The translations under genes and the position numbers were made by a program. This document shows, one piece after another, positions 1 through 18,094 of a stretch of DNA of 19,967 nt. The DNA is from Deltaproteobacteria bacterium RBG_13_61_14 (GTDB taxonomy: Bacteria; RBG-13-61-14). The stretch covers positions 8,180 to 28,146 of the forward strand of contig MGQK01000035.1 of assembly GCA_001797815.1 (NCBI GenBank), in the 5' to 3' direction. Position 1 is the stretch's first letter; each line of letters starts with the position of its first letter. Below the pieces are notes generated by a model. That model was not told where the DNA came from, did not search any database, and saw only the letters and a list, made by a program, of their open reading frames with translations.

Positions 1-1480
1 CCTGGATCTCCTTGGCGCTTCCAAAGTCCGAGGTCTCGCCTTCCATCTGCACCCGGCCTTCATTATAGGTATACTTGGCCAGGTCCACCGACACCTCGGC
101 CGGAATTTTCTCCGAGAGGGCGGCCAGCACCTCCATGGCCCGCGGTCCCAGGAGCGGCCGGTATTTCTCCATCTTTGCCTCGTCCGCCAAGAGCTTCTGC
201 TCCATGAACGCCACCGGGTCGCCGGTGACCACCAAGCCCGTCGAGCTCGCCAACAGCTGATTCGTCCGCCCCCGGATTTGCTCAATCTGGGCCGCGGCCC
301 CGGACCGGGCCATCCAAAACCGGGCCCCCATCGTCATGAAAACCAAGAGCAAGAGCGCGGCCGGGAAGGCCAGCTTTTGCCGGTAAATCCGGGTCTCCCG
401 CCGGTAGGCGAATTCCCCTTTCCGAAAATTAATCGCGGGCGGCCCCTCCGCCAGGGCCAGGGCTAAACACTCGGCCAATTGCGGATGCAGCTCCGGCGCG
501 ATCCGGCGATCCTCCGGCATGAGAGCGGCCGGGAAGCGGAAGACCCGGGCCGGGATTCCCAACTCGCGCTCGGCCATCTCCTTAAGGCCCCGGAGGTTGG
601 CCGTGCCCCCGCACAGCACCAACTCCTGCCACCGGCAGACTTCCTCCGTCCCTTCCCGCCGGCGCTCCAGCCAGCGCCGGTTGTTCAAAAGCCACGGCCA
701 AAGCGGAAGAAGGCCTTGCTCGAGCCGGCGCACGACCCGGGCCTCCTGCGGCTTAAGTCCCACCGGGTCCACTCCCACCCGGCCTTCCTGCCGCTTGCCT
801 TGCTCGGCCTGCTCCCAGGACAGGTGAAACTCCTCGGACAGCAACCGGGTCAGGTCATCTCCGCCCAATGACAACAAGCTGACGTGGAGCGGCAGCCCGT
901 CCCGCACCACGCACAGCCGGCTTTTCCGCGCGCCGATGTCCAGATAGGCCCGGCAGCGGACGCCGTTTTGCGGCTCCAGGCTCGCCAGCGCATACAGGCA
1001 AAGCCCCTGGGCGCTGACCACGGCCGGATCCATCCCGGCTAAAGCCAGGTCGCCCAGAAAACGGGAAAATTGCTGACGGTCGGCCCCCGCGATCAGGACC
1101 TCCGCGCCCTGTTTCCTGATGCCCGCGGGAAGATACTCCAGCAGGATTTCATCCAGGTCAAAAGGAAGGTAACTCTCGGCCTCGTAGGCAACGATTTGTT
1201 GGATTTTCTTGGGAGCCTGAAAAGGCAGTTCAATCAACCGGAAGGAACAGTGCTCGGCCGGAAAAGCCGTGTAAACCCCTTCCCGGGCCAGGGGCCAGCT
1301 CTCAAACAACCGGGAGAGCGCCGGCGCGCCCGGCTCTTTAGTCGAGCCCGGGGCAGGCGAATCGCCCTCCCATTCCTGGAGGTAGTGATCCTTCACCTGG
1401 TATTCGCCCAGGCGCTTCTCCACCTCCAATCCATGCAGGGCCCGATGTCCCACTTCTGCGACCACTACCCGCCTAGCCAT
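1..1480 (-). CDS. GspL/PilM-PilN-like pilus or type II secretion inner-membrane protein (3' end outside window)
   Basis: Read on the minus strand from an ATG at 1480 the frame is open for 493 codons to the window edge, so the C-terminus is missing. Residues 1 to about 365 look like the cytoplasmic actin-like domain of PilM/GspL: the N-terminus MARRVVVAEVG resembles a first nucleotide-binding strand, IVAYEAESYLPFDLDEILLE matches the PilM interface segment, AYLDIGARKSRLCVVRDG is the second strand-turn, and VLCGGTANLRGL the late glycine-rich loop. One membrane segment follows (about residues 380-397, AFPAALLLLVFMTMGARFW). After it comes a coiled-coil-like stretch and the start of a PilN/GspL-type ferredoxin fold (IPAEVSVDLAKYTYN, then VQMEGET). 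PilM and PilN are usually separate genes; here both parts are in one chain, as in GspL. The role would be coupling the cytoplasmic ATPase to the periplasmic part of a type IV pilus or type II secretion machine. An AGGT lies 8 bases before the ATG. The family is fairly sure; which of the two machines is not. Confidence 0.5.
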   Translation of the reverse strand, partial: MARRVVVAEVGHRALHGLEVEKRLGEYQVKDHYLQEWEGDSPAPGSTKEPGAPALSRLFESWPLAREGVYTAFPAEHCSFRLIELPFQAPKKIQQIVAYEAESYLPFDLDEILLEYLPAGIRKQGAEVLIAGADRQQFSRFLGDLALAGMDPAVVSAQGLCLYALASLEPQNGVRCRAYLDIGARKSRLCVVRDGLPLHVSLLSLGGDDLTRLLSEEFHLSWEQAEQGKRQEGRVGVDPVGLKPQEARVVRRLEQGLLPLWPWLLNNRRWLERRREGTEEVCRWQELVLCGGTANLRGLKEMAERELGIPARVFRFPAALMPEDRRIAPELHPQLAECLALALAEGPPAINFRKGEFAYRRETRIYRQKLAFPAALLLLVFMTMGARFWMARSGAAAQIEQIRGRTNQLLASSTGLVVTGDPVAFMEQKLLADEAKMEKYRPLLGPRAMEVLAALSEKIPAEVSVDLAKYTYNEGRVQMEGETSDFGSAKEIQ

Positions 1481-2346: not shown

Positions 2347-2360
2347 AAAGGAGACTTGAG
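2347..2360 (+). promoter_or_regulatory. Ribosome binding site of the giant gene
   Basis: AAGGAG at 2348-2353 sits 7 bases before ATG 2361. It fixes the start, which also gives a complete Sec signal peptide. Confidence 0.5.
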
Positions 2361-5300
2361 ATGAAAAGGTTTGGCATCGCAACGTTGGTGATGGGGCTGT
2401 GTATGGGCCTTTGCCTGGGCTTTTCCTCCCCAGCTTCGGCTCAAAGTCTGCCCGGAGCCTTCTACATCGGCGACGCGGATGGCAACGGCGTCATCGGCGT
2501 TCCCGACATGAATGCCCTTAACCTGAGGTTGAACGGGAAACCTTATGGTTACCTGAATGTAAAGCCATCCACCGGGGAAACCCAGGAATTGGACGGCAAC
2601 TGCCTCTTAGGCGTACCGGATAAAAACTTTCTCAACCAATGGTTGAACAACAAATGGACTATCCCCGGCGGCCATCCCGACAGCGTTGCCCCTGTCTCCA
2701 CTTCAATTATCATTCCTGAGGAGGGCGTGGATATCAGCGTGACTACCCCGGATAATCTGGGCGTTGGCATGATCAAGTCCGGCTGGGGCGTGACCTTTCG
2801 GGTGGAATCCGGCGCTGGTCTTTGCTCGGGCGCCCTGATCGAAGCTCTCAATGGAGGCGCGGTTCCCACCAGCGGCCCCGAGGGTTTCGACTACACCATG
2901 GATGGTTGCATGCTCGGCGGCGGCGATGATGGCTACGCCACCGTCAAGATCCTGCCCGGCACCTGCGTCAACGGCGACTCCGTGGAAATTTATCCCTGGG
3001 TCAAGAGAGACGCCATTTCCGGCGCCCTCGGCCAGCGCCTCCCTGCCGACATTCTCCCCACGGCCTCTATCCGCGGCGTGGTCCGCATCGGTGTGCTCCC
3101 TTGCGACCTGGTTTCCTTGACCATCAACGGGCCAACCAATATCTTTGAAAATGCTGTCCAGGCTTATACCGCGACCTGCACTTACGTGGGCGCCGGCTGC
3201 AGCATCTTCTCCGATGGCTGCACCCAGGCCGGCGGCGTCGCGTGGGATGCCCCGGGCGGCGACCTCTCCTTATCCTCCTCAGATCCTCTTTCCATTACAG
3301 TTCAAGCCAATGATATTCCCTGCGGCGACGGCGGCAACGGCACCGTTTCCGGCTCCGCCAGCTTCGGCCTTGGCTCGGATACGGACCTGGTAAACGTCAT
3401 AGTTGACAACGACGACAACCGGACCGGGATCACCGCCAGCGTGACCAACATTAACGAGAACCAGACCCTGCCCTACACGGTCAGCGCCCTTTACGGGCTG
3501 ACGGCGTGCGAGGACGTGACCGGCACGGCGTCGGTGAGCGGCGACTGCAGCGGCGTGGCGGGCTCGGGCTCGATCACCGGCAACAACGTGTGCGGGAACG
3601 CGGAGCCGGCCGGTACCTGCTCGATTAACGAGGGGTTGGACAGCGCTCTGCCGGTGACCCTGCACGATGACGGCGATACCATTTTCAGCACGCTGATCGC
3701 CCCGGATCCTCTTAACATCAGCGAGACCCAGAGCCAGCAGTTCACCTTGCTCCGGACCTGGACCGATTCCTGCACCGATAACCTGACCGCGACCGCGGGT
3801 TGGGGAGTGACTCCGGGAGACTGCTCCACCGCCGGTTCGATTACCTCCGGCGGTCTCTACACCGCCGCGGATGTTGACGCCGACTGCGCCGAGCAGGTTA
3901 CCACCAGCACCCCGGTGGCGGGCAACAGCCCGGTAACCGTGAACGTCTCCGCCATCTGCATTCCCATCAGCATGACCTGCACGGTTACGAATATTGATGA
4001 AAACGAGACCCTGCCCTATACCTGCACCGACAACTGCGGCGCCGACGTAACCGCTGACACCACGGTCTCCGACGACTGCACGTCCCCGACTGGCCCGGGC
4101 TCGATCAGGGGTAACGACGTGCCCTGCGGCGACGAGCCGGCCGGCACCTGCTCGATTGATCATGCCACCTTGGGCAGCGGGCCCGTAACCCTGCACGACG
4201 ACGGCGACGTGCAAACCGATATGCTCTGCTCGATTAACACCGCGATCGAAGGCGTGGACGGATCTTATACCTGCCAGGCCATTTACAACACTGATCTGTG
4301 CCAAGATGTTACCGCTTTGACGGCCATGGTCGGCGCGGTCTGCTCCGGCCCCGGCGGCAACTACACCTGCTCCGAGGTCTGCGGCGACGACGACCCGGCC
4401 GACTCGACTATTAACCAGGGCGGCCTGTATCCGCAGGCCGTGGCGGTGGGGGATGACGGCGACCTCATCACCGACACTGCCGGCCTGCCCGGCTCGATCC
4501 TGGAAGGTTCCAGCCAGGCCGTGGCCTGCCAGTACGTGTGGGGCTTGGAAGGCACCTGCAACGATACCGATGATATTTGCACCGCCGACCTCTCCGAGAC
4601 CTCGGGCAACTGCGCCCTCGCGGCCGGCAACCTGAGCGCGCCGGAGCTGTGCGGCGATGACAATCCGCCCGACTGCTCCCTGGCTTCCCAGGCCCCGAAC
4701 GAGACCGTGGACGTGGTGGACGACGGTGACTTCGTCAGCTCGGTGGACTTGACCCCGGCTGGTCCGCTTGACAAGAACGCCGGAACGACCGAGGACTTCT
4801 ATTGCGTGGGCACCTGGAACGAGGGGTGCACCAACAGCGAGGTCAACAACCAGGGCGTGCCCCCGGACTTTGTCCTGACCGTGAACCTGTCCGGAGCCAC
4901 GGTGGATGATGCCACGGGGATTTATACTGCCGGCTCCACCACCGGCGTCGCGGATAACCTGCAGTGCGCCATTGCCAGCGTGAACAGCAATACCGTGGTG
5001 ATTAACGTGACCGGCGCGGTCGGCACCTGCGCGCTCTCTGAGAGCACGCTTCTTCCGGGCAATACCCTCGAGCCTCCGACCGCGGCCATGGCCACCAACA
5101 CCGCGGAGGCGGTGACCGAGGTCAATAACTGGACCGACAGCCCCACCCCGCTTCTCAACGGCGCTCCCGTCGGCAGCGACGGGCAGAACACCGTGCTCGG
5201 ACTGCAGATGGGAAGCCCCATTACCTTGACCGGCAACTCGGTCCAGCTATATCCCACAGCGAAAACAGTGTCTGACACGACTAACGACATCGTCAATGGG

Positions 5301-8300
5301 TTCACTACGCAACCGTGGGACCTGCGATCGACTGGAGGCGTCCTTACGACCAATCTCGGGAGTTACTGGGTAGAGATCCTCGCGAACCAACCGGCTTCTG
5401 CCGAACGCATGGAAGTGACCAATTTCAATGTGAGCGCCATCCCGGATGGCGCCGTGGTCAGCGCGGTGACCCTGCGCGTAGTTTGCGGTAATTCTTATTG
5501 GTATTCTGCTGACTATATGCCCACCAACCCCTACATTCAATACAACACCGGCTCGGGTTGGAATACCAGCAGCATAATCTGCTGGGATAGCACTACGGGA
5601 TACAATCCCGAAGCAACCCAAGCTGTTTCGGGGATCACCACCAAAAGCGGCGTCCAGAACCTCCTGGTGGCCTTTGATATGGCGGGATACCCCGTCGCAG
5701 GCACGACGAGGTGGGCCGGGATCAATTACGTGTATTTGAATGTTACCTATGCCACCCCCGTGCCCGGCAAGACCCTGGCCATGGGCGATTGGGACACCAG
5801 CAAGATCCCGGGCGGCGCGACCATCACCGGCGTGACCCTGGAATCGCGGTATGCCACGGGTTCGGCCTATGCCGCCGGCGACCAGATCATGTGGGACCTG
5901 GACGGCGGTCCGGGAACGGGCACCGGCATCAACCTCAACGCCAACCAGGCCGCCTGGGTGGTCGAGACCGCCAGCCTGGGCGCGCTCACGCTTTCTGAAA
6001 TCGGAACTCTGGACGTGTGGGTGACCAACAGCTCCGCCACCGTGACCAACACCAACGCGACCTTTGATTACCTGCGGCTCAACGTCGCTTACACGACCGG
6101 CGGCAGCGGGCCTTTGACCGAGATCCTGGAAGGCGAAATCAAGGACTACTCTGCCTTGATCACCTGGGCGGACGAGACCACCGAGCCGGCGGTCGTTGCC
6201 GCTATTGCCGGTTGCGCGGCGAGCGACAACGGCGACGGCACCGGGACCTTGACCGGCGGCGAGTTCGGCTGCGGCGTCGGCGGCACCTGCTCGGTTTCGT
6301 GCACCGGCGTGGTTTCCGGCAATCCCGACGGCAATGTGGACATCCCGGTCAACAACGATGACTTCATCCTCGCGATGGATGAGACGCCGGAAGGCCCGCT
6401 GTCCATGACCACGGGCCAGAGCCAGGACTTCTACTGCGCGGGCCTCTGGAGTGACGGGTGCACCAACAGCGAGTCCAATCCCTTGGGCGTGGCTCCGGCC
6501 TATGACCGGGCTTCCACGACCTGCCCCACTCCCGGCACGATCGGCCCGGTGACCGGGCTTTACACCGGGGGCACCGGCGGGGACTGCACCGAGGAGTTGC
6601 GGTGCACTATTTCCGGGCTCTCGGACAGCGAGACGGCGAACCTGTTCGTGCCCTCCTGCGACTTGACCGCTTTGGATCTGGTTCCCCAGGTGGGCCCCGG
6701 GGGCGGCATCACCCTCACCGAAGGCCAGCAGCAGCAGTTCACCACTTCGTGCAGCTATGCCGGCCCGGCCTGCTCGCCTGATCCTTATACCGACGACTGC
6801 ACCCTGGCCGGCGGGGTGAGTTGGACCATCCTCGGAAACTTGATCGACCTGGGCAACGGCCTGGTCGAGGCCGACCAGGTCCCCTGCGGGGCCGGCGGTT
6901 CGGGCTCGGTCCAAGTCACGGCCAGTTACGGGCACGGCGTTCAAAGCGACACCACCAATGTGACCGTAGACAACAACGACGGGATCGATACTGAGGTGCT
7001 GGTCTGCCCCTCGATCGTCGTGGAGGGAGAGGCGTTTAACTGCGTGATCAACCGGATCTGGTCGGACGAGTGCACGGATAACGTGCCGGCCACCGGCTCG
7101 ACCTGTTCGCTCCCCTGCACCGGCTCGGACGGGGCCTTCGCCGCCGGCCAGATTCCGTGCGGGGCCGGCGGGTCCTGCGTGATCACCCTGACCGGCATGG
7201 CCGGCAGCCCCCAGACGGTCACGATCAACAACGACGACATCAAGTCCGCGGTGACCGTATTGCCGGGTAGTATCACATGCCCCAACACCGGCTGCACCCA
7301 GGACTTCTATGCCTACCTGGCCTGGTCCGACGGCTGCACCGATCCGGATGACGCCGGCGGGTGGAGCAAGAGCGGCAACTGCACCGGTTCCGCGGTGAAC
7401 AGCAACGGCGTTTACACCTTGCCGGACCAGGGTCCCTCCGGAGGCTTCGCGTGCGACGATCTCGTAACCAAGACCGATAACCCGGCCACCCCGGACAGCG
7501 CTGAGGTGAGCGTGGATGGAACTGCGAGGGCCGACTGCTCGCTGCAGGAGATGAGCGCACCCCAGTCCGTGAATGTATTCGTCAACAGCTTCGCCCCGGC
7601 GGAAGGTTCGTGTCTGGTGAACGAAACGACCGCGGACTGCTACGCGGACCTGCAGGGGATCGAGGGTGGAACCGGCCAGGATAACACGACCTGCCAGGGC
7701 TTGGGAGCGGCTAACGCCAACTGGCGGGTTGATGGAGCCAATACTCAGGACGTAAGCTCGTTTGATACTCTGAACGTGACCGCCATCCCGGACGGGGCGG
7801 TGATCACCTCGGTAGTGCTCCGGGGGGTTTGGTCCACCCAGGGCGGCTACGTCGGCCCCAACTGCTTACAATGGTCAACCAATGAGTGCGCCACCCTGGT
7901 GAACAGCACGATCTGTCCCGACCTCGACACCACGACCTGGCAAAACGAGTCGCAGGACATCACCGCGACCAGAGCCTGGACCAAAACCATGCTCGGAAAC
8001 ATGAACATTTACCACTATAACAACGACGCGGGCGACAATGACAACGTGTATTGGGACCTGATCCGGGTGGAGGTGGGATACGTCTTGCTTGCCCCCTTCA
8101 CCAGTCTTGATGAGGGCCAGACCAAGAACTTCAGCGCGTTGATCACCTGGGAGGACACGACCACTTCCAAGGCCAACCTGACTACGCTGGACAGCAACTG
8201 CAGCGTGGTGGACGGGGCCGGGGGCACCGGGAGTATCACCGCGGCCCAGATCCCCTGCGGGGCCGGCACCTGCCAGGTGCAGTGCGATGAGGAAGGCGGA

Positions 8301-11300
8301 TTGTTGCGGCCGGACGGCACGGTCACCATTCCGATCAACAACGACGACACGCTGCTGAGCGCGGTGATCACGCCAGGCTCGGCCTCCATCTTTGAGAACC
8401 AGACCCAGCAGTTCCAGGTGAAGCTCAGCTGGGACGACGGCTGCACCGAGGACCTGACTTCCAGCGCCGGCTGGGCCCTGAGCGGCGGAAATTGCACCAA
8501 CAGCAGCATCAGCAGCGGCGGTCTCTTCACCGCCGGGGATTATTCCGGCACCACCGAGCCGGCCTGCAACACCACCGTGGTCACGACGACCCCGGCCGCG
8601 GATAATCAGCCCGTGGTCATCGTGCACGATGACGACGGGACCGCGCCCGTGTTCATCGGCGTGTTCCCCCTGGATACGCCGACGGCGCCGGCCAACGACC
8701 GGTTCCGGCTCAACGCGCATCCCGACCAGGGGCTCACCCTCCTGCTCGATCCCACTCCGGCCCGGACCCCGACCTCCTGCACCGTGACCTGCGGCGGCTT
8801 GAGCTACACCTGCAATGTGGGACTCTTCCCGGATGTGGATTGCACGGCGCCTTCGAACCATCCGCCGTTGAGCACGGTAACCTGCACCACGATTTCCTGC
8901 ACCAACGCCAGCGGAGCCGGGAGCTTCCTCGGGGTCAACACCTTCGTCACCGGCCTGGTCGCGGCCCCGGCCACCGGCGGGTTCGGCGGCGGTTACATCG
9001 GGGCCAACACCTACGACCGGTCCACCGGCGTGGATCCTGGCAGCTTGAAGGTGCAACTGGTGGACTGGGACACCCGGGCGGCGACCACCGGCAAGGCCTA
9101 CGTGCAGCGGATCCAGAACGCGGTGACCTACCAGAACTTCACCACTCTCGCCGGTCTTCTCAACCTGGCCTCGGGCGTGCCGGGCTACCCGCTCGCGGAA
9201 CTGACCGTGGGCCTGAAGTGCGGCGCGACCCGGTGCCCCGACACCATGGCCGCCCAATACAACAACTACATGTACAAGAGTTGGCACGACGTGGACGCGC
9301 GGGACATCATTCTGACCATGGAGCTGATGCCCAGCGCCAAGGGCGTGGCGCCGCCCAGCGAGATTAACCCGGCGCTGTTCCCGGGCGACCGCTACCGCCG
9401 CTATGTTCTGAAACTGACGGGCACCTTAACCCCGGCGGAAATGAACACCATCTACCCGGGCCCCACTTCGCTGACGGCCCGGGTGATCTTGGCGCCGCCG
9501 GTGCACCTGCGCGCGGGCTTCATCCTGATGGCCCTCAAGGGCACGGCCAATATCAACATGGACTACTTGCTCATGGGCACCGATGACAATATTTCGATCG
9601 CTCTCTGCCTAGTCGAGAGCGGTAACATGGGTCTGGGCCTGGAGTTTGCCCTGCCGCCCAACCTGGTGACTCCGGAAATCTATCGGACCTACTGGTGGCA
9701 GGCTTGCGCGACCTGGACGGCCAACCCCGGCAAAACGGATTGGAAGAGCTATTACTGGACCTCCCAGCCAAGCGAAAGGCGGGTGATGATGGTCTTCGGC
9801 GTTTACGCGAATGCCTCGAACTTCTCCCTGGCCGGCGGTCTTGACCTGTTCCAATTCCCGATGTACGTCTGCTGGCTCGGGACCCAGAGCATCACGGTGC
9901 CGGCCAACATTTTAACCGGCGACCGGACCCTGACCGTGAACCTCCGCCGCGAGTGGGATCTGCGGGAACAAGTAGACGGCTTTACTCCCACGGATCCCGA
10001 CCCCCTCCTGGATCGGCGGACCCAGTTCCTGGTGGGCCCGGCCTTGCCGGTTGACCCGGCCCGGGAGCAGGCGGCCTTGCAGTTTAGCTGGATCCGCCGG
10101 GTGGCCAATGCCTCGGACTCGGAACTGCAGCAAAAGGGCCTGGTGCCGGCCGGCACCTGGGACAAGCGCTTTGTCCGGAATAGCATCACTTCGCTGATGG
10201 GCGTGGACAGCGGCTGGAGCACCGGGATGATCGTGTTCGGCCTGCAGCTTAACACGCGGATCAACGATCATGAGTGGACCTCGTTCGCGATGGCCTACAT
10301 GCAGAGCACCACCCCCCGGGGTGGTAACCGGGACCTGAGGTACTGGTCCGGCCACACCGCGGACAGCGAGGAATCCACCCGGATCCTGAATTCAATTGAC
10401 TCCCGCTGGACCGATCCGGATTTCTCGACCCAGCCGCTGGAGCGGGGCGGGCCGACCAACTACGCGGCGATCTTTATCATGATGCGGGGCGGAATGCTTG
10501 AGCAGAAAATGGCCGCCAGGGACAAGGTCGCCCGCACCATCACCAACCCCGGCACCATCATCAGCGTGGTGCACGCGGGGCCGATGGGCTTTAATACCGT
10601 TGACTATTACCAAGGCGGCACGGCCCATCTGATTGCGGTCAACGAGTTCATGAACGTGCCCAGGGCGATCTCGCCGACGCCGGAAGGGTATCAGTTCCCG
10701 GGTCCGCAATGGACGAGCTACACGGCAGATCCCGATGGCTACTACACGAATAACCGCAACAGCGAGCTGGAGCGGGTCTTGACCGGCGGCGGGCTCATTG
10801 CCACGGATTCGGCCTCGGGCAACCGGCGCTACTTCGAGTTCACCAGCCCGAGCACTTTGAAGAACGCCTCGCGCAAGGCGCACCAGTGGAAAATGACGGT
10901 GGCCGAGCCGGGCATGACTTTTGGAATGGACAAGTGGTCGGCCAAGAAACCGGTGCAAGACAGCGACGGTGTTTGCGCCAACACCAGCCCGGGCACGTTG
11001 AATGACAACCTCGACATTGCTTACAACCCGGCCCGGTTCAAAACCCAGGGCGTGCGTAGCGGCGACGCCCTGCGCATCATGAAGTGCACCACGACCGGCT
11101 GCACGGTCCGGACTTATACGGTCCAAAGCGCGCTCTCGGAGACCCAGATCCAGATCACCGCGGACTGGCTGGGCGCGGATAGCGGATTAGGGAGCCGTCG
11201 CTACTTCGTCTGGCGTCGCACGGGCGCCACCCCGCTGGACAGAAAGAAGGGTGAGTGCGTGATTGACCAGTGGTTCGGCGGCGGCCCCGGGGACTATGCT

Positions 11301-11630
11301 TGCAAGAGCAATACCTTCATGCAGATCGAAGGGGCGGTCAAGAGCTTCGCCAACATCCGGGTGCACATCCCGGCGCTCACCCCGGGCTATGCCACTTTGT
11401 CCGGCACCACCGGCTACATCCCGGACCTGTATGAGGGCATTGACCCGACCGGCACGCTCACTCCCAAGGCGAAGCAGTTGGAGTGGGCCGTCAGCATGAG
11501 CGCGATGAACACCGGCCTGGCCATGTATGGCGGACTGGGCGGTTTCGACTGGAACAACCAGGACTTCGTCAGGGTCGAGACCAAGGTGCAACTGAACGTT
11601 CAGGAAGGCTGGTTCTACCAGACCCAGTAA
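2361..11630 (+). CDS. Giant exported cysteine-rich protein: dockerin-like module, Ig-like repeats, unknown C-terminal region (3089 aa)
   Basis: Residues 1-28 are a Sec signal peptide (charged MKR, hydrophobic core, cleavage after ASA); no lipobox. Residues 36-98 hold two dockerin-like calcium loops: D38, D40, N42, I45, D49, then E76, D78, N80, L83, D87. After a beta-rich stretch (108-249), about 14 Ig-like repeats of 81-107 residues run from 250 to 2094, many with a W(S/T/D)D-x-CT core and ending in NNDD, DNDD or HDDGD. They are interrupted by beta-rich modules at about 898-1133, 1134-1247 and 1731-1910 that share an IP-x-GA-x-I turn. Residues 2095-3089 match no family I recognise. By hand count about 97 cysteines remain after cleavage, implying disulfides and export. 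I see no LPXTG, PEP-CTERM, autotransporter barrel or C-terminal membrane helix. It is divergent from a pilus/T2SS gene, so it may be a surface adhesin, filament or secreted scaffold (inference). No catalytic motif seen. Confidence 0.5.
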   Translation: MKRFGIATLVMGLCMGLCLGFSSPASAQSLPGAFYIGDADGNGVIGVPDMNALNLRLNGKPYGYLNVKPSTGETQELDGNCLLGVPDKNFLNQWLNNKWTIPGGHPDSVAPVSTSIIIPEEGVDISVTTPDNLGVGMIKSGWGVTFRVESGAGLCSGALIEALNGGAVPTSGPEGFDYTMDGCMLGGGDDGYATVKILPGTCVNGDSVEIYPWVKRDAISGALGQRLPADILPTASIRGVVRIGVLPCDLVSLTINGPTNIFENAVQAYTATCTYVGAGCSIFSDGCTQAGGVAWDAPGGDLSLSSSDPLSITVQANDIPCGDGGNGTVSGSASFGLGSDTDLVNVIVDNDDNRTGITASVTNINENQTLPYTVSALYGLTACEDVTGTASVSGDCSGVAGSGSITGNNVCGNAEPAGTCSINEGLDSALPVTLHDDGDTIFSTLIAPDPLNISETQSQQFTLLRTWTDSCTDNLTATAGWGVTPGDCSTAGSITSGGLYTAADVDADCAEQVTTSTPVAGNSPVTVNVSAICIPISMTCTVTNIDENETLPYTCTDNCGADVTADTTVSDDCTSPTGPGSIRGNDVPCGDEPAGTCSIDHATLGSGPVTLHDDGDVQTDMLCSINTAIEGVDGSYTCQAIYNTDLCQDVTALTAMVGAVCSGPGGNYTCSEVCGDDDPADSTINQGGLYPQAVAVGDDGDLITDTAGLPGSILEGSSQAVACQYVWGLEGTCNDTDDICTADLSETSGNCALAAGNLSAPELCGDDNPPDCSLASQAPNETVDVVDDGDFVSSVDLTPAGPLDKNAGTTEDFYCVGTWNEGCTNSEVNNQGVPPDFVLTVNLSGATVDDATGIYTAGSTTGVADNLQCAIASVNSNTVVINVTGAVGTCALSESTLLPGNTLEPPTAAMATNTAEAVTEVNNWTDSPTPLLNGAPVGSDGQNTVLGLQMGSPITLTGNSVQLYPTAKTVSDTTNDIVNGFTTQPWDLRSTGGVLTTNLGSYWVEILANQPASAERMEVTNFNVSAIPDGAVVSAVTLRVVCGNSYWYSADYMPTNPYIQYNTGSGWNTSSIICWDSTTGYNPEATQAVSGITTKSGVQNLLVAFDMAGYPVAGTTRWAGINYVYLNVTYATPVPGKTLAMGDWDTSKIPGGATITGVTLESRYATGSAYAAGDQIMWDLDGGPGTGTGINLNANQAAWVVETASLGALTLSEIGTLDVWVTNSSATVTNTNATFDYLRLNVAYTTGGSGPLTEILEGEIKDYSALITWADETTEPAVVAAIAGCAASDNGDGTGTLTGGEFGCGVGGTCSVSCTGVVSGNPDGNVDIPVNNDDFILAMDETPEGPLSMTTGQSQDFYCAGLWSDGCTNSESNPLGVAPAYDRASTTCPTPGTIGPVTGLYTGGTGGDCTEELRCTISGLSDSETANLFVPSCDLTALDLVPQVGPGGGITLTEGQQQQFTTSCSYAGPACSPDPYTDDCTLAGGVSWTILGNLIDLGNGLVEADQVPCGAGGSGSVQVTASYGHGVQSDTTNVTVDNNDGIDTEVLVCPSIVVEGEAFNCVINRIWSDECTDNVPATGSTCSLPCTGSDGAFAAGQIPCGAGGSCVITLTGMAGSPQTVTINNDDIKSAVTVLPGSITCPNTGCTQDFYAYLAWSDGCTDPDDAGGWSKSGNCTGSAVNSNGVYTLPDQGPSGGFACDDLVTKTDNPATPDSAEVSVDGTARADCSLQEMSAPQSVNVFVNSFAPAEGSCLVNETTADCYADLQGIEGGTGQDNTTCQGLGAANANWRVDGANTQDVSSFDTLNVTAIPDGAVITSVVLRGVWSTQGGYVGPNCLQWSTNECATLVNSTICPDLDTTTWQNESQDITATRAWTKTMLGNMNIYHYNNDAGDNDNVYWDLIRVEVGYVLLAPFTSLDEGQTKNFSALITWEDTTTSKANLTTLDSNCSVVDGAGGTGSITAAQIPCGAGTCQVQCDEEGGLLRPDGTVTIPINNDDTLLSAVITPGSASIFENQTQQFQVKLSWDDGCTEDLTSSAGWALSGGNCTNSSISSGGLFTAGDYSGTTEPACNTTVVTTTPAADNQPVVIVHDDDGTAPVFIGVFPLDTPTAPANDRFRLNAHPDQGLTLLLDPTPARTPTSCTVTCGGLSYTCNVGLFPDVDCTAPSNHPPLSTVTCTTISCTNASGAGSFLGVNTFVTGLVAAPATGGFGGGYIGANTYDRSTGVDPGSLKVQLVDWDTRAATTGKAYVQRIQNAVTYQNFTTLAGLLNLASGVPGYPLAELTVGLKCGATRCPDTMAAQYNNYMYKSWHDVDARDIILTMELMPSAKGVAPPSEINPALFPGDRYRRYVLKLTGTLTPAEMNTIYPGPTSLTARVILAPPVHLRAGFILMALKGTANINMDYLLMGTDDNISIALCLVESGNMGLGLEFALPPNLVTPEIYRTYWWQACATWTANPGKTDWKSYYWTSQPSERRVMMVFGVYANASNFSLAGGLDLFQFPMYVCWLGTQSITVPANILTGDRTLTVNLRREWDLREQVDGFTPTDPDPLLDRRTQFLVGPALPVDPAREQAALQFSWIRRVANASDSELQQKGLVPAGTWDKRFVRNSITSLMGVDSGWSTGMIVFGLQLNTRINDHEWTSFAMAYMQSTTPRGGNRDLRYWSGHTADSEESTRILNSIDSRWTDPDFSTQPLERGGPTNYAAIFIMMRGGMLEQKMAARDKVARTITNPGTIISVVHAGPMGFNTVDYYQGGTAHLIAVNEFMNVPRAISPTPEGYQFPGPQWTSYTADPDGYYTNNRNSELERVLTGGGLIATDSASGNRRYFEFTSPSTLKNASRKAHQWKMTVAEPGMTFGMDKWSAKKPVQDSDGVCANTSPGTLNDNLDIAYNPARFKTQGVRSGDALRIMKCTTTGCTVRTYTVQSALSETQIQITADWLGADSGLGSRRYFVWRRTGATPLDRKKGECVIDQWFGGGPGDYACKSNTFMQIEGAVKSFANIRVHIPALTPGYATLSGTTGYIPDLYEGIDPTGTLTPKAKQLEWAVSMSAMNTGLAMYGGLGGFDWNNQDFVRVETKVQLNVQEGWFYQTQ
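3108..8643 (+). repeat. Protein-coding repeat region: about 14 Ig-like modules in recurring classes
   Basis: By eye the repeats fall into classes. A (residues 250-353 and 1435-1540) has two linked CTY/CSY cysteines, an AGGV(A/S)W core and a PCG turn. B (354-439, 536-616, 617-701, probably 702-790) ends in DDGD. C (440-535, 1626-1730, 1997-2094) has W(T/S/D)D-x-CT and a SGGL(Y/F)TA turn. D (791-897, 1334-1434) has DFYC and GCTNSE. E (1248-1333, 1911-1996) has SALITW and follows an IP-x-GA module each time. One repeat (1541-1625) is intermediate. Class recurrence in the order C, D, module+E, A, C, module+E, C suggests duplication of blocks of domains. The fold resembles BIG2 or Calx-beta sandwiches; that assignment is inference. 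Confidence 0.5.
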
Positions 11631-11651: not shown

Positions 11652-11690
11652 CAGCGCCCCGGGATCCCTTCCCGGGGCGCTGTTCTTTTA
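11652..11690 (+). terminator. Intrinsic terminator of the giant gene
   Basis: A perfect 12-bp stem (11652-11663 with 11671-11682, core AGCGCCCCGGG) and a 7-base loop are followed by TTCTTTTA. It starts 21 bases after the TAA at 11630, so the giant gene is probably monocistronic. Confidence 0.5.
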
Positions 11691-12114: not shown

Positions 12115-13089
12115 ATGTCTCCGAGAATTGTGACGATTGAACCCAAAGTAGAGCTTTCGATTATCATCCCGGTGTTCAACGAGGGAGAGAGTCTGCGCTC
12201 GCTCCATCAGTCGCTGTGCGGAGTGCTGTCGGGCTTGCCGGGCCGGGCCGAAATCCTCTTTGTCGATGACGGGAGCACGGACCAGACCGTGGCCGTGCTG
12301 CGCGAGCTTTTTCAGGAGGATGAACGGGTGCGGGTGGTGCGCCTGAGCCGCAATTTCGGACAGACCGCAGCCTTGAGCGCGGGTTTCCACCATGCCCGCG
12401 GCCGGGTGGTGGTGACCATGGACGGGGATTTGCAGAACGCGGCGGAGGACATCCCGATTTTGCTCCGGAAGTTGGAGGAAGGCTTTGATGTGGTCTCCGG
12501 CTGGCGCAGCGCGCGGCAAGATCCCTGGCTGACCCGCCAGCTTCCTTCCCGCTTCGCCAACCTCCTGATCTCCGGGCTGACCCGGATTCCGCTCCACGAT
12601 TTCGGCTGCACCCTCAAGGCCTACCGCCGCGAGGTGGTCGAGCACCTGCACCTGTATGGGGAAATGCACCGGATGATCCCGGTGCTGGCCTATTGGACGG
12701 GAGCCCGGCTGGCCGAGGTGGAAGTCAGCCACCGGCCCCGCCAGCACGGCCGTTCCAAGTATTCCATGACCCGGATCCTGGCGGTCCTCCTTGACCTGAT
12801 CTCGGTGATCTTCTTTACCGGCTATTCCACCCGTCCCATTCACCTGTTCGGGCTTTTGGGCTTGCTCTCCCTGGTCATCGGCGGCTTAAGCTTTGCGGCC
12901 ATGGTGCTGATGAAGCTTTACTCCGGCACGGACATGACCGGCAACCCCTTCCTGATCCTGTTCGCCCTCTTCACCATCATCGGGATTCAGTTGATCATGC
13001 TCGGCCTCCTGGGTGAGATCAGCGTCCGCTCCTACTACGAAATCCAGGACAAGCCCACCTATCTCGTCCGCGAAGTCCTGGAGCGGTAA
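12115..13089 (+). CDS. Membrane-anchored family 2 glycosyltransferase (polyprenyl-phosphate sugar transferase type)
   Basis: 324 residues, close to the usual size of the GtrB/ArnC/DPM1-like group. Nucleotide-sugar binding is shown by SIIIPVFNEGES (15-26), VDDGSTD (50-56) and the metal-binding DGDLQN (103-108). DFGCTLKAYR (162-171) and SHRPRQHGRSKYS (205-217) are the acceptor-side motifs of this group. Two C-terminal membrane helices (about 241-266 and 279-303) hold the catalytic domain on the cytoplasmic face of the inner membrane. The expected reaction is transfer of a sugar from a nucleotide donor to undecaprenyl phosphate for glycan or lipid modification; the sugar cannot be read from sequence. 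ATG 12115 has no strong ribosome site; GTG 12130 is an alternative that would leave the fold intact. First gene of a four-gene operon. Confidence 0.5.
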   Translation: MSPRIVTIEPKVELSIIIPVFNEGESLRSLHQSLCGVLSGLPGRAEILFVDDGSTDQTVAVLRELFQEDERVRVVRLSRNFGQTAALSAGFHHARGRVVVTMDGDLQNAAEDIPILLRKLEEGFDVVSGWRSARQDPWLTRQLPSRFANLLISGLTRIPLHDFGCTLKAYRREVVEHLHLYGEMHRMIPVLAYWTGARLAEVEVSHRPRQHGRSKYSMTRILAVLLDLISVIFFTGYSTRPIHLFGLLGLLSLVIGGLSFAAMVLMKLYSGTDMTGNPFLILFALFTIIGIQLIMLGLLGEISVRSYYEIQDKPTYLVREVLER

Positions 13090-13097
13090 GGAGTCGG

Positions 13098-13189
13098 CAG
13101 TTGGCGGGCGATGGTTGGCAGTTGGCAGAAAGTTTCTTGCCGCAAACCACGAACCGCGAACCGCGAACTGTGAACCGTGAACCGTGACA
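13098..13189 (+). repeat. Period-7 tandem repeat between glycosyltransferase genes
   Basis: The right part (13141-13189) is seven heptamers: CGCAAAC, CACGAAC, CGCGAAC twice, TGTGAAC, CGTGAAC, CGTGACA. The left part (13098-13132) is a different, more degenerate heptamer family built on CAGTTGG. The last unit provides the GTG start codon of the next gene at 13184. It resembles the short tandemly repeated heptanucleotides known from cyanobacteria and other genomes. Confidence 0.5.
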
Positions 13190-14407
13190 CCCCTCCGGAT
13201 CTTAATGCTGGCGCCCACCCCCTTCTTCGCGGACCGGGGCTGTCATGTGCGGATTTTTGAGGAAGCGCGGGCGCTAAAGGAGCGGGGCCATGAGGTGGAG
13301 ATTGCGACCTACCACCTCGGCCGCGACCTGCCCGGCCTGAGTGCTCCCGGTTTGAAACCGGGAGTCGCGGTCCACCGCATCCGCCATTTCCCCTGGTACC
13401 GCCAGCTCTCGGCCGGGCCCAACCCCCATAAGCTCTATCTCGACGCCTTCCTCTTGCGCCTGGCCCAGCGCCGCCTGCGCGATTTTTCGCCCCACCTGAT
13501 CCACGCTCACCTGCACGAGGGCTGCCTGATCGGCCACCTGCTCCGCCTGAAAAAGCCGGTCCCGCTGGTCTTTGACTACCAGGGTTCCCTGGCCGATGAG
13601 GCCCTGGGTCATGGTTTGGTGCGGGATAACTCCTTCGGCCATCGCGGGCTCATGCTTCTCGAGCGCTGGATCAACCGCCGGGCCGACTTCATCCTGGTCA
13701 GTTCCGCCTCCCTGGCCGGCCGGCTCGCCGGGCCGGTTCTAAAGGGGCGCGTGGCCGTGATCGGAGACGGGGTGGACTCGGCCTTGTTCCAGCCGGCGCC
13801 GGATCCCGCCCTCCGCCAGCGTCTGGGCATTGCCGGCGACGCCATCCTGGTGGTCTTCCTGGGCTTGCTCACCACTTACCAGGGAGTGGACCTGCTCCTG
13901 GAAAGCGCCCGTCTGGCCTGTGCCCAGGAGCCGCGGCTGCATTTCCTGGTCATGGGCTACCCGGATGAGGACCGTTACCAAAAAAAGGCTTTAGCCCTGG
14001 GGCTGGCCGGCAAGGTCACCCTTCCCGGCCGCATCAATTATTTCGAGGCCTCTGCTTGCCTGGCCGCCGGCGATATCGCGGTGGCCCCCAAGATCTGCCG
14101 GACCGAGGCCAACGGCAAGCTGCTCAATTACCTGGCCTGCGCGCTTCCGGTGGCGGCCTTTGATACGGAGGTCAACCGGGAAATCCTGCAAGAGAACGCC
14201 GTCTATGCCGAGCTTTCTCCCGACGATGAGCCGACCAGCGCCCGGCGGCTGGCGGAAGCCGTGTTGACCCTGGCGCGCGACGGCGCCTTGCGGCTAAAGC
14301 TGGGGGCCGCCGGCCGGCGCCTGGCCAAGGAACACTATTCCTGGAAGCAGACCGCGGCCCGGATCGAGGAGATCTATCAGCGCCTTCTGGAGAAGGGTGA
14401 AAGGTGA
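13184..14407 (+). CDS. Family 4 glycosyltransferase (GT-B fold)
   Basis: 407 residues, normal for GT4. The first strand and glycine-containing loop are ILMLAPTPFFADRGCHVRI (6-24). The second Rossmann half opens with VVFLGLLTTYQGVDLLLES (223-241) and continues with VMGYPDEDRY. The donor-binding segment is APKICRTEANGKLLNYLACA (301-320), the NGKLLNY form of the GT4 E-x7-E region in which the second acidic position is not obvious. It would add a sugar with retention of configuration to a lipid-linked or surface glycan in the cytoplasm. The GTG start at 13184 keeps the whole first beta strand; ATG 13205 would cut it. Both the start codon and the C-terminal residues EKGER (stop at 14405-14407) are made from heptamer repeats. 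No good ribosome site is visible, so translation may depend on the gene before. Confidence 0.5.
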   Translation: MTPLRILMLAPTPFFADRGCHVRIFEEARALKERGHEVEIATYHLGRDLPGLSAPGLKPGVAVHRIRHFPWYRQLSAGPNPHKLYLDAFLLRLAQRRLRDFSPHLIHAHLHEGCLIGHLLRLKKPVPLVFDYQGSLADEALGHGLVRDNSFGHRGLMLLERWINRRADFILVSSASLAGRLAGPVLKGRVAVIGDGVDSALFQPAPDPALRQRLGIAGDAILVVFLGLLTTYQGVDLLLESARLACAQEPRLHFLVMGYPDEDRYQKKALALGLAGKVTLPGRINYFEASACLAAGDIAVAPKICRTEANGKLLNYLACALPVAAFDTEVNREILQENAVYAELSPDDEPTSARRLAEAVLTLARDGALRLKLGAAGRRLAKEHYSWKQTAARIEEIYQRLLEKGER

Positions 14408-14521
14408 AGAGTGAAGGATAAAGAGTGAAGGATGAAGGATGAAGAATGAAGAAAAAGAGATGAAGTCGGAAGGCGGCCATTCCGCAGGTCGGACTTCACC
14501 CTTCACCCTTCATCCTTCGCC
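14397..14521 (+). repeat. Paired inverted heptamer arrays across a gene junction
   Basis: Left array 14397-14466: ten period-7 units of the GTGAAGG/ATGAAGG type. Right array 14494-14521: four units of the complementary type (CTTCACC twice, CTTCATC, CTTCGCC). The two could fold into a long imperfect hairpin with a ~27-base loop. The left array contains the stop of the GT4 gene (14405-14407) and the start of the next gene (14439). The right array encodes part of that gene's N-terminal tail. Confidence 0.5.
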
Positions 14522-15542
14522 ATTGGTTTCGGTGGTGGTGCTGAACTGGAACCGGGCCGAGCTCTTGCTCGAGTGCCTGGAGTCGCTTTTCATTCAGCGG
14601 TTTCGGGAGTTCGAGGTGATCGTGGTGGACCAGGGCAGCCGCGACGGCTCGGTGGAAGCGGTGCGCCGGCGTTTCGGCGAAAGGGCGCGCCTGCTCCGGA
14701 ACGAGACCAACCTGGGTTTCGCCGAGGGGTGTAATGTTGGCATCCGGATGAGCCAGGGCCGCTGGATCGCGCTGCTCAACAACGATGCCGTGGCCGACCC
14801 CCGCTGGCTCGAAGAGATGGTGAAGGCAGGGAAGAGCCGGCCCGGGATCGGCATGGTGGCCTGCCGCATCCTCAGCCGCCGGGAGCGCGACCGCATTGAT
14901 AACGTGGGCGTGGCCGTCTATCCCGACGGGATGAACCGGGGCCGCGGCCGGGGCGAGCGCGACGCCGGGCTCTACGAAGAGGGATACGAGGTGTTCCTGC
15001 CCAGCGGCTGCGCCTGCCTGCTCAGCCGGGAAATGCTCCTGGAGACCGGGTTGTTTGACCGTGATTTCTTCGCTTACAGCGAGGACACGGATTTGGCCCT
15101 GCGCGGCCGGCTCCTGGGCTGGCGCTGCGTCTTCGCCCCCCGGGCCGCGGTCTATCACCATTATTCCTCGACTGCCGGCAAGGTGAGCGCCTTCAAGGTC
15201 TTTCATGCCGAGCGCAACCGCATCTGGATCCTGCTCCGCTACCTGCCCCCCGCTTACGTGGCGCTGAGTCCGGCTTATACCCTGGCGCGCTACCTTTTCC
15301 TGGCGCCTGCCGCCTTCAAATTGCTGGCGGCCAGGTCTCCAAATACTGAAAAAGGAGCAGAAGGAGTGACCGCACTCCTCAACGCCTTGCTCCGGGCTTA
15401 TCGCTCCGGCCTGGCCAGGATCCCTTGGCAATGGGCCTGGCGCAAACAATGGCAAAGTCGCCGGCGGATGAGCGCCTGGACGCTCTCACGCTGGCTCAAG
15501 CAATACCGGATCTCCCTCGCCGAACTTTCCTCCTGGGACTAA
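14439..15542 (+). CDS. Family 2 glycosyltransferase (rhamnosyltransferase-like)
   Basis: 367 residues. The GT-A domain starts at about residue 30: VSVVVLNWNRAE (30-41), VVDQGSRDGS (62-71), the metal-binding LLNNDA (112-117), then FFAYSEDTDLALRGRLLGW (210-228) and the VYHHYSST segment (239-245). This layout is that of the WbbL/rhamnosyltransferase branch of GT2, which adds sugars to O-antigen or other surface glycans; the donor is not readable. Residues 1-29 are polar, lie outside the fold and are largely translated heptamer repeat (for example SPFTLHPSP). The start is therefore uncertain between ATG 14439 and ATG 14460; GAAGG-like sequences from the array precede both. The C-terminal ~100 residues contain hydrophobic stretches (YVALSPAYTLARYLFLAPAA) that may associate with the membrane. 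Followed after 6 bases by the radical SAM gene. Confidence 0.5.
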   Translation: MKNEEKEMKSEGGHSAGRTSPFTLHPSPLVSVVVLNWNRAELLLECLESLFIQRFREFEVIVVDQGSRDGSVEAVRRRFGERARLLRNETNLGFAEGCNVGIRMSQGRWIALLNNDAVADPRWLEEMVKAGKSRPGIGMVACRILSRRERDRIDNVGVAVYPDGMNRGRGRGERDAGLYEEGYEVFLPSGCACLLSREMLLETGLFDRDFFAYSEDTDLALRGRLLGWRCVFAPRAAVYHHYSSTAGKVSAFKVFHAERNRIWILLRYLPPAYVALSPAYTLARYLFLAPAAFKLLAARSPNTEKGAEGVTALLNALLRAYRSGLARIPWQWAWRKQWQSRRRMSAWTLSRWLKQYRISLAELSSWD

Positions 15543-15548
15543 AGACCC

Positions 15549-16928
15549 ATGCGCATCCTGCTCATCAATCCGCCGCCCGAGTCCGGGCAAACCCAGGACA
15601 TCCTGGGCCCGCCCCTGGGCCTGGCCTATTTGGCCGCCGCCCTGGAAGCCGCAGGACAGACGGTCGAAATCCTGGACGCCTTCGCCCTAGGCCTGTCCTG
15701 GAAAGAGCTGGAAGGCTTCCTGGCGCGTTCCAGGCCCGATCTGGTGGGCATCGGCGGCATGACACCCATCATCAATGCCTCCTACCGGGCCGCAAAAATT
15801 GCAAGGCCACATACCCGCTGGCTGGTCCTGGGCGGACCCCATGTCTCGGCCGTCCGGTCCCAGGTTTTCCAGGAAGCGCCGGAGTTTGATTTTGCCCTGA
15901 AGGGCGAGGCCGAGGAATCTTTCCCTGCCCTGGTCCAGGCCCTGGAAAAGGGCGAGCCGAGCCCGGTGACTTCCATTCCAGGTCTGCTCACACCCAACGT
16001 CGAAAACCCCTCTCCGCCCATGATTGACGACCTGGACCGCCTGCCTTTTCCGGCCCGGCGCTTGCTGCCCAATTCGCGCTATTGCCACCCGCTTTTTGGG
16101 GGAGAACCCATTGCCACGGTCATGACCTCCCGGGGCTGCCCTTTCGGCTGCGTGTTTTGCGACAAGGCGGTGACCGGCCGGCGCTGGCGGCCGCGCTCGG
16201 CCGAGAACGTGCTTAAGGAACTGGAACAGATCGTCAAAGAGCTGGGCATCCGCTCCATTATTTTTTACGACGACCTCTTCACCCTGGACCAGGAGCGGAC
16301 CATCCGCATCGCCCGGGGCATGATCGAGCGGAAATGGAACCTGCGCTGGAAGTGCGAGGGCCGGGTGAACCTGGTGGATGAGGAAGCGCTTCAGTGGATG
16401 AAGCGGGCCGGGTGCGAGATGATCGCCTATGGAGTGGAGAGCGCCAACCCCCATGGCCTCCAGTTCCTGCACAAGGGGATCACGCCGGAGCAGGTGCGCC
16501 AGGCGTTTGCCCGGACCCGGGCCGCCGGCATCCAGACCCTGGCCTATTTCCTGCTCGGCATTCCCGGCGAGAGCTTTGCCGACGAACTCCGCACCATCCG
16601 CTTCGCCCGCGAGATCGGCGCGGACTATGCCCAGTTCGCCTTGCTCTCCCCGTTCCCGGGCACGCCCCTTTATCAAGAAGCGGTCGCCAAGGGCTGGTAC
16701 CGGGAAGGCCCGGCCTTGGGTCTGGCCGAGCAGGGCGTAAGGCGGCCTCTGCTCATCACCGCGGAGTGGACCGAGGACAAGCTGAAGGCGATCCAGCGCC
16801 GCGCCTATACCGGCTTTTATTTCCGGTCCGGCTACATCCTTGGGCGCTTGCGCCGGTTGCGGAGTCCCCGGGAGTTCCTCTCCGGCGCGCGCGCGGCTCT
16901 CTCGCTCTTGGGCTGGCGCTTCTTTTAA
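15549..16928 (+). CDS. B12-binding-type radical SAM protein
   Basis: 459 residues in two domains. Residues 1-140 form a cobalamin-binding-like Rossmann domain: ILLINPPP at the start, PPLGLAYLAAALE (21-33), VGIGGMTP, VLGGPH (93-98) and KGEAEESF (118-125). It lacks the DxHxxG base-off motif, as do many members of this class. The radical SAM core begins at TSRGCPFGCVFC, with the iron-sulfur ligands C197, C201 and C204, and includes FYDDLF, CEGRVNLV, IAYGVESA and YFLLGIPGES, typical strands of the barrel. Members of the class (BchE-, HpnP/HpnJ-like and methyltransferase-type enzymes) perform ring closures, methylations or lipid modifications; the substrate here cannot be told. It follows the GT2 gene by 6 bases without a clear ribosome site, suggesting translational coupling. 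The HpnA-like gene at 19416 makes a lipid/hopanoid link possible but unproven. Confidence 0.5.
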   Translation: MRILLINPPPESGQTQDILGPPLGLAYLAAALEAAGQTVEILDAFALGLSWKELEGFLARSRPDLVGIGGMTPIINASYRAAKIARPHTRWLVLGGPHVSAVRSQVFQEAPEFDFALKGEAEESFPALVQALEKGEPSPVTSIPGLLTPNVENPSPPMIDDLDRLPFPARRLLPNSRYCHPLFGGEPIATVMTSRGCPFGCVFCDKAVTGRRWRPRSAENVLKELEQIVKELGIRSIIFYDDLFTLDQERTIRIARGMIERKWNLRWKCEGRVNLVDEEALQWMKRAGCEMIAYGVESANPHGLQFLHKGITPEQVRQAFARTRAAGIQTLAYFLLGIPGESFADELRTIRFAREIGADYAQFALLSPFPGTPLYQEAVAKGWYREGPALGLAEQGVRRPLLITAEWTEDKLKAIQRRAYTGFYFRSGYILGRLRRLRSPREFLSGARAALSLLGWRFF

Positions 16929-17206: not shown

Positions 17207-18094
17207 ATGAAACGAGTGTTCTGCTGGTCGCTGGTTCTGCTGCTCTGGGCGGGTTCCGCTCAAGCGTTGCCCTTCAGCCGTTCCAAGAAGATTTTTCGCA
17301 AGGGCGATGGCACCTGGGTCAAGCTGATCAAGGGCAAGAAAACGCTGCGGCCCTTTGACCACCCGGCCCAGTTCAGCGAAGAAGCCATGGACCGCTACCT
17401 GGCCTCGATCCGCTATTTTCGGCCCGAGTTTTATTCGGTCACCGGCAAGACCGGCAAGGAATGGGACTTGCTCAGCGCCGAGGAGCGGGCTCCGATCGTG
17501 CCCCACCTGGTCAAGGCCTTTGCTTTAGCCAAGCCGGACCAATGGGTGGACTTTTCCATTTCCGCCTACCGCGGCACCTTGCTGATCGGCTCTTATCGCC
17601 AGAGCGACGGGGTGATGTTCGTCAAGGATGGCGAGCTCAATATCGTTTTTCGAAACATCTCGCTCAAGAAATCACCGGCCGAAGTGACGCCCAAGACCGA
17701 TCCCACCAAGTCCTACACGGCCCGCGTGCGGATCGCGCCCGGTCCCGGCCAGCGCCTGATGCCGGGCACCCGCCTGGGCAAGGAAGTGGACAAAGAAAAC
17801 TGGGTGGTGATGAGCGCCAAAGAAGCGCCGCCGCTCGCGACCGCGGTGAAGCCGGAGCGAGAGCCGGAAGAGCCGATTCCGTCTTCGATCCCGCCGGATC
17901 AGCCGGTGCCGGCCCAACCCCAGGCCTCGCCGGCTCCGGCTCCGCCGGCCTCTGCTTCGGAAGCCTCGCCCGCCCCCGAGCTTAAACCCTCGACCCGCGA
18001 GCGGCTCCAGGAACTGAAAGCGCTTTACGACGAGGGACTGATCAGCCACGAGGAATACCTGGAGAAGCGGGAGCAAATCCTCCAAGAGCTGTAA
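17207..18094 (+). CDS. Exported SHOCT-domain protein
   Basis: 295 residues. Residues 1-20 are a signal peptide (MKRVFCWSLVLLLWAGSAQA), probably cut after AQA; there is no lipobox. Residues 21-205 form a compact alpha/beta region with YRGTLLIGSYRQSDGVMFVK that I cannot assign to a family. Residues 207-261 are a low-complexity proline/alanine linker. Residues 264-295 are a SHOCT motif (RLQELKALYDEGLISHEEYL, then KREQIL), a short C-terminal oligomerisation helix pair found on many bacterial proteins. The start is firm: AAGGAG lies 7 bases upstream. With its own promoter and the CDF gene 14 bases downstream it forms a second operon. It probably acts in the periplasm or envelope; its role is unknown. 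Confidence 0.5.
   Translation: MKRVFCWSLVLLLWAGSAQALPFSRSKKIFRKGDGTWVKLIKGKKTLRPFDHPAQFSEEAMDRYLASIRYFRPEFYSVTGKTGKEWDLLSAEERAPIVPHLVKAFALAKPDQWVDFSISAYRGTLLIGSYRQSDGVMFVKDGELNIVFRNISLKKSPAEVTPKTDPTKSYTARVRIAPGPGQRLMPGTRLGKEVDKENWVVMSAKEAPPLATAVKPEREPEEPIPSSIPPDQPVPAQPQASPAPAPPASASEASPAPELKPSTRERLQELKALYDEGLISHEEYLEKREQILQEL

Follow-up and report, generated by a model that had tools for sequence, protein, structure and literature searches.

The bacterial Ig rods known so far owe their stability mostly to core packing, Ca2+ or isopeptide bonds, and they contain few cysteines. The SpaA-type pilins, which are polymerised by sortase and carry isopeptide bonds, belong to other Ig families than the protein described here, and S-layer genes often adjoin glycosylation genes. 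According to a title cited in PMC5380327, the shaft pilins of the SpaA type have Ig-like modules with both isopeptide and disulfide bonds, and to that extent they offer a precedent for the covalent stabilisation of tandem Ig-like modules. LigA and LigB of Leptospira, which gave the closest structure matches to the repeats of our protein and are among their closest sequence-profile matches, are thought to be lipoproteins, and their Ig domains have no cysteines of the kind that, in some Ig domains, link one sheet to another (PMC7821625). Like the giant protein of this locus, they combine tandem Big_2 Ig domains with an export signal, and LigB and LigC also have a large C-terminal extension, whereas no dockerin head and no counterpart of the giant protein's C-terminal domain were detected there. 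Since the LigA/LigB Ig domains have no such cysteines, the cysteines are the departure of the giant protein from Big_2 proteins of this type. The S-layer proteins SbsC, EA1 and Sap likewise contain strings of Ig-like domains, but the giant protein differs from them in having no SLH domain, many paralogues and a high cysteine content. We use the likeness to LigB or to S-layer Ig strings as a working analogy, which does not make the giant protein a member of either functional class. Giant proteins are also found in candidate phyla such as Omnitrophota (PMC10066038), and these very large proteins of uncultured bacteria are likened to ours by size alone, with no shared domain claimed.

The window, that is, the whole stretch of 19,967 nucleotides analysed here (G000:C35:8180-28146), comes from a genome of 4.74 Mb in 132 contigs with a completeness of 95%, in a phylum of which very few genomes have been sampled; its features are collected in Table 1. 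A reading made earlier from the letters alone (the sequence-only reading) had described a single giant gene for 3089 residues with about 97 mature cysteines, and this holds: the ORF starts with ATG and has no internal stop, and 97 of the 99 cysteines lie after residue 28. GC3 along the gene is 0.64-0.89 and is high over most of it, and when the bases of this 9.3-kb stretch were shuffled 200 times, the longest run without a stop had 500 codons. Misassembly or a pseudogene, which would have spoken against that reading, is unlikely, because the contig, of 54.8 kb, extends beyond the gene on both sides, and because two other genomes share the conserved C-terminal domain. These relatives, G001 and G002, are MAGs of an "uncultured delta proteobacterium" named AlinenSediments. 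Cysteine makes up 3.2% of the whole protein and 5.3-5.4% of the two large repeat blocks, the mean of the 15 neighbouring ORFs being 1.1%, and residues 251-890 are strikingly acidic and poor in Lys/Arg (86 D+E versus 4 K+R). The repeats are also rich in Thr and Ser. Histidine accounts for 0.55% of the residues, and CxxC, like CxxCH, is absent from all 3089. The whole protein gave no match to Pfam (anchor families included, E ≤ 1), NCBIfam or PDB sequences, and a search for Rfam elements and tRNAs found none. The region 5' of the gene (1481-2360) is unusually long and AT-rich in a window of 62% GC, and it has TTGACA at 1823 and TAAAAG 17 nt further on.

Table 1. Features of the window and of the giant gene (positions in the window; residues of the giant protein).
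Feature	Position	Strand	Basis and remarks
GspL/PilM-like gene	2..1480	-	Runs off the left window edge; divergent from giant gene
Shine-Dalgarno AAGGAG	2348..2353	+	7 nt 5' of the ATG of the giant gene; read from sequence
Giant Cys-rich exported protein, 3089 aa	2361..11630	+	319 kDa mature, pI 4.1
Sec signal peptide, residues 1-28	2361..2444	+	By eye: AxA site, no lipobox
Dockerin-type head, residues 31-98	2451..2654	+	Two 12-residue Ca2+ loops, profile matches
Big_1-like Ig domain, residues 100-245	2658..3095	+	Part of head module; Pfam Big_1 in 2 of 12 family members
Big_2-type repeats 1-7, residues 251-890, 34 Cys	3111..5030	+	HMM, AlphaFold, Foldseek/VIA
Inserts J1 (residues 946-1117) and J2 (1113-1247)	5196..6101	+	Alignment, HMM; beta-sandwich-like, mutually related
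Big_2-type repeats 8-12, residues 1246-1727, about 26 Cys	6096..7541	+	HMM
Insert J3, residues 1728-1910	7542..8090	+	Related to J1/J2
Big_2-type repeats 13-14, residues 1907-2095	8079..8645	+	HMM
C-terminal domain, residues 2096-3089 (~1000 aa)	8646..11627	+	10 Cys invariant in three genomes
Intrinsic terminator-like site	11652..11682	+	13-bp stem, 11 G-C, then TTCTTTTATT; begins 22 bp 3' of giant gene
GT2, polyprenyl-phosphate-type (ArnC/PgfS-like)	12115..13089	+	Same neighbour in G001, 52% identical
GT4 glycosyltransferase	13184..14407	+	Same order in G001 and G002, 44-46% identity
GT2 glycosyltransferase	14439..15542	+	Same order in G001 and G002, about 40% identity
B12-binding radical SAM protein (HpnJ/BchE-like)	15549..16928	+	B12-radical-SAM gene at same position in G001 and G002

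The many Ig-like repeats seen in the sequence-only reading are 14 in number by HMM, all of Big_2 type and arranged in three blocks. Residues 29-535 were modelled by AlphaFold together with 17 related sequences; the pLDDT was about 90 (blocks about 82-95) for repeats 1-2 and 58-85 for repeat 3. Among the best structure matches was LigA 8gyr (Z 11.5, 168 residues aligned, with an rmsd of 10.9 taken across two domains, repeats 2-3), LigB 2mog aligned to repeat 3, the repeat with pLDDT 58-85, at Z 9.7 and an rmsd of 2.6 across 90 residues (VIA-align), and the S-layer Ig domains of SbsC, EA1 and Sap matched the repeats at Z 8.3-8.7 (SbsC 8.7; Foldseek/VIA). Foldseek matches to nucleoporin, cadherin and titin had low TM-scores and were read as generic strings of beta-sandwiches. 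In the PDB, a profile of the repeats matched LigB (0.006) and, at 4e-5, domains of Big_2 type in a teneurin-like protein from bacteria; with Pfam Big_2 (PF02368) the giant protein had no match at E ≤ 1, and one relative matched at 0.0078. The repeats show the Big_2 fold by the AlphaFold model together with the LigA/LigB structure matches, and with SbsC also among the best matches we identify them, on this model, as Big_2-type Ig domains of known fold. Among the inserts, J1 and J2 carry the motif IPxGAxITxVxL and have relatives at two other loci (L015 and L080), and neither matched a Pfam family.

The cysteines had been described as recurring at fixed places, which is not what the alignment of the repeats gives: each repeat of the giant protein has 3-7 Cys (relatives reach 8-9) and uses a different subset of about eight main cysteine columns, so that positions are preferred and not fixed. 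The count is even in 12 of the 14 repeats (column-shuffle p 0.013) and in 52 of 70 repeats of the family, a number reached in none of 5000 shuffles; after redundancy filtering, the family parity has a p of 0.008 at 60%, 0.06 at 50% and 0.03 at 40%. All repeats with two cysteines (n = 5) have them on the same two columns, and columns co-occur, with a best phi of 0.69-0.73 (95% limit from shuffles: 0.48). The parity group for G001 and G002 also takes in the giant protein, and the group confined to its own genome leaves it out; in these own-genome paralogues parity is absent (5 of 13 repeats even), which is either counter-evidence or a sign of pairing between domains. In an unrelated genome (G376), the Big_2-like repeats caught by the same HMM carry no cysteine. 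A VKOR-DsbA fusion, with a CPHC motif in its thioredoxin part, is found above the Pfam cut-off in all three genomes of the phylum compared, which answers a check for DsbA/DsbB or VKOR proposed beforehand. Given the even counts, the co-varying columns, the lack of CxxC and the VKOR-DsbA of all three genomes, disulfides in the repeats of the giant protein are likely, as a moderately firm prediction; the disulfide-locked rod of the sequence-only reading is thus favoured indirectly by the same four lines, and the missing parity of the own-genome paralogues, like the p of 0.06 at the 50% filter, goes against it. In the literature searched we found no report of disulfide-rich Big_2 repeats, which is no proof of their absence.

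An ordinary Big_2 adhesin, with cysteines that are incidental and mostly unpaired, would accord with the standard fold, with cysteine positions that differ from repeat to repeat and with the parity missing in the own-genome paralogues, but we consider it quite improbable in view of the cysteine content of the repeats (5.3% versus 1.1% in the neighbours), the parity and co-variation in the giant protein and G001/G002 (a group that includes the giant protein), the encoded VKOR-DsbA and a C-terminal domain with ten invariant cysteines. A standard family with unpaired cysteines was also what the sequence-only reading had named as speaking against it, and here the fold is indeed standard, whereas unpaired cysteines are not what the data point to. 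The high cysteine content and the lake-sediment origin of the relatives might instead point to cysteines that bind metal or serve in redox reactions or electron transfer at the cell surface. This is very improbable, as metal and haem motifs were rejected by the motif search of the giant protein, its cysteines are spread across Ig strands and loops, and histidine is scarce.

At the N-terminus, three further claims of the sequence-only reading, an exported protein, a dockerin-like head and no visible common anchor, agree with what we found. Export is indicated by the signal peptide, within which residues 3-24 form the sole strongly hydrophobic stretch of the protein. Sortase and autotransporter anchors had no match in Pfam and no second segment is as hydrophobic as the signal peptide; the single LPxTG (LPCTG) sits within a repeat, and no Pfam family for SLH or another S-layer anchor was found at E ≤ 1, a result compatible with an S-layer protein that is without SLH. 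The head has two Ca2+-loop/helix segments of the type I dockerin form DxDxNGxxxxxD, with loops at residues 38-49 (DADGNGVIGVPD) and 76-87 (ELDGNCLLGVPD), the second of which deviates by E at position 1 and C at position 6. A profile of 12 family heads matched PDB entries 5nrk, a type I dockerin (1.9e-4), and 8x39 (7e-9); Pfam Dockerin_1 was matched by five of the 12, and the giant protein's own head had no Pfam match. As in type I dockerins, the loop is duplicated and followed by a helix, but here the head comes directly after the signal peptide, is fused to the Big_1-like domain, and has no cohesin counterpart found in its own genome (95% complete); relative G001 has two cohesin matches just over the cut-off. 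The Big_1-like domain has strands in the AlphaFold model at low pLDDT, and the whole head is poorly modelled. The three genomes of the phylum compared have 10, 13 and 13 matches to the head module. Some of these matches are fragments where a contig ends, and in several own-genome paralogues the module lies near the C-terminus instead.

The C-terminal domain has an ordinary composition and a pI of 6.3. AlphaFold with three sequences gave a pLDDT of 29 and no fold, and no catalytic family was found for it by sequence in Pfam, NCBIfam or the PDB. It is present in all three genomes of the phylum compared and in none of 383 other genomes sampled, and when contigs of GTDB species and IMG/VR, both of which are samples, were scanned from pattern seeds with the C-terminal alignment, it turned up only in the two lake-sediment relatives. 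We regard it as a candidate new domain, with relatives found only in the three genomes of the phylum compared. The sequence-only reading had suggested looking for a homologue of the same architecture; the domain occurs in two other genomes, which are so fragmented that the orthologue has its head and its C-terminal domain on separate contigs. The large size, conservation and ordinary composition of this domain, together with the dockerin-type head and the cohesin matches in G001, would suit a stalked extracellular enzyme or binding protein, with a catalytic or lectin-like C-terminal part of ~1000 residues, repeats as spacers and a head that docks into a cellulosome-like scaffold. We think this rather unlikely, with no cohesin found in the protein's own genome, no catalytic family by sequence and a failed prediction of the C-terminal fold.

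Downstream of the giant gene, the order GT4, GT2 and B12-radical-SAM gene is kept in all three genomes, the last gene having been judged in G002 by its N-terminus and length. The polyprenyl-phosphate-type GT2 that comes first after the giant gene was verified in the window and in G001; at its slot in G002, only an antisense ORF is listed. In G001 the cluster extends to further glycosyltransferases and an epimerase. The giant gene and the glycosyltransferases are neighbours but probably not one operon, because a strong terminator-like hairpin lies between them. This conserved neighbourhood, conservation in all three genomes and the structure matches to S-layer Ig domains of SbsC, EA1 and Sap would fit an S-layer-like coat, in which Ig repeats and C-terminal domain self-assemble as the main envelope layer and are glycosylated by the adjacent cluster. 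Such a coat is unlikely, however, since the head module occurs at many loci per genome, unlike an S-layer with its single dominant gene, Pfam (E ≤ 1) gave neither SLH nor a different anchor, and Ig matches of this kind are common in unrelated proteins. On the other side, beyond the left window edge, there is a T2SS GspM gene followed by a GspN/AsmA-like gene (L023:6608-8052, minus strand). The T2SS was detected in part, with GspM above the cut-off, GspL/N-like genes near the giant gene and GspK on contig C110, in a search that covered components other than the secretin and the ATPase.

We lean towards a secreted surface fibre of disulfide-braced Ig domains, which would have a Ca2+-loop head for docking and, at the far end, a large domain, and which may be glycosylated. 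Of this picture, the rod and its export by Sec have good support, and the disulfides moderate support; export by the T2SS, glycosylation and adhesion we infer. In such a fibre, the chain would cross the inner membrane via Sec, and VKOR-DsbA would join the cysteines of the repeats in pairs by oxidation, for the most part inside single Ig domains. This would brace the rod covalently and not just by core packing or Ca2+. A type II system may then take the folded protein over the outer membrane, and the Ca2+-loop head would dock it onto a cell-surface partner. The adjacent enzymes may decorate the protein or make a surface glycan to which it binds, and the C-terminal domain may form the exposed tip, with a substrate or an adjacent cell as its binding target. 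More tentatively, the protein may belong to a phylum-specific fibre system of about 10 loci per genome with a dockerin/Big_1 head, several with Big_2 rods Cys-stapled via VKOR-DsbA, and with one conserved member that has the new ~1000-residue C-terminal domain and a syntenic, dedicated glycosylation cluster. If stapling of nearly every Big_2 domain is true, the family would offer a natural series of 2, 4, 6 and 8 Cys per repeat for the evolution of covalent bracing in a tandem fold, and a major surface product of uncultured bacteria would be linked to oxidation by VKOR-DsbA. The C-terminal domain, for its part, is a conserved target without annotation.

Some minor observations concern the surroundings of the locus and its relatives. 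The window also encodes, on the plus strand, a small exported-looking protein with a SHOCT domain at its end (17207-18094) and a cation diffusion facilitator (18109-19302) whose residues 309-387 match the end of a mannose-1-phosphate guanylyltransferase/mannose-6-phosphate isomerase, an unusual fusion. Directly left of the window lies a gene for a large DxDxDG-rich protein with thrombospondin-3-like repeats (L023:1-5623, minus strand). A protein fragment of G002 (L081:8256-14999, minus strand; 2247 residues) has 113 Cys (5.0%) and 13 repeats, mostly with exactly 8 Cys. On sequence matches, the head module is shuffled onto different repeat types. One protein of G001 (L049:311-6571, plus strand) carries the same head together with kelch repeats and RCC1 repeats, the latter about 13 in number. 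At several loci (L014, L021, L015 and L017), ORFs break off in a dockerin segment of nearly identical protein sequence (YFGDGDGNLLIGVPDLNRINLILNG), at contig edges or masked stretches. It is as if the dockerin module existed in near-identical DNA copies that collapse the assembly. One of these loci (L014:1-14278, minus strand), in the protein's own genome, encodes a second giant of at least 4759 residues and 105 Cys, with the contig edge inside its dockerin-type head and with four very similar tandem repeats of 6 Cys each.
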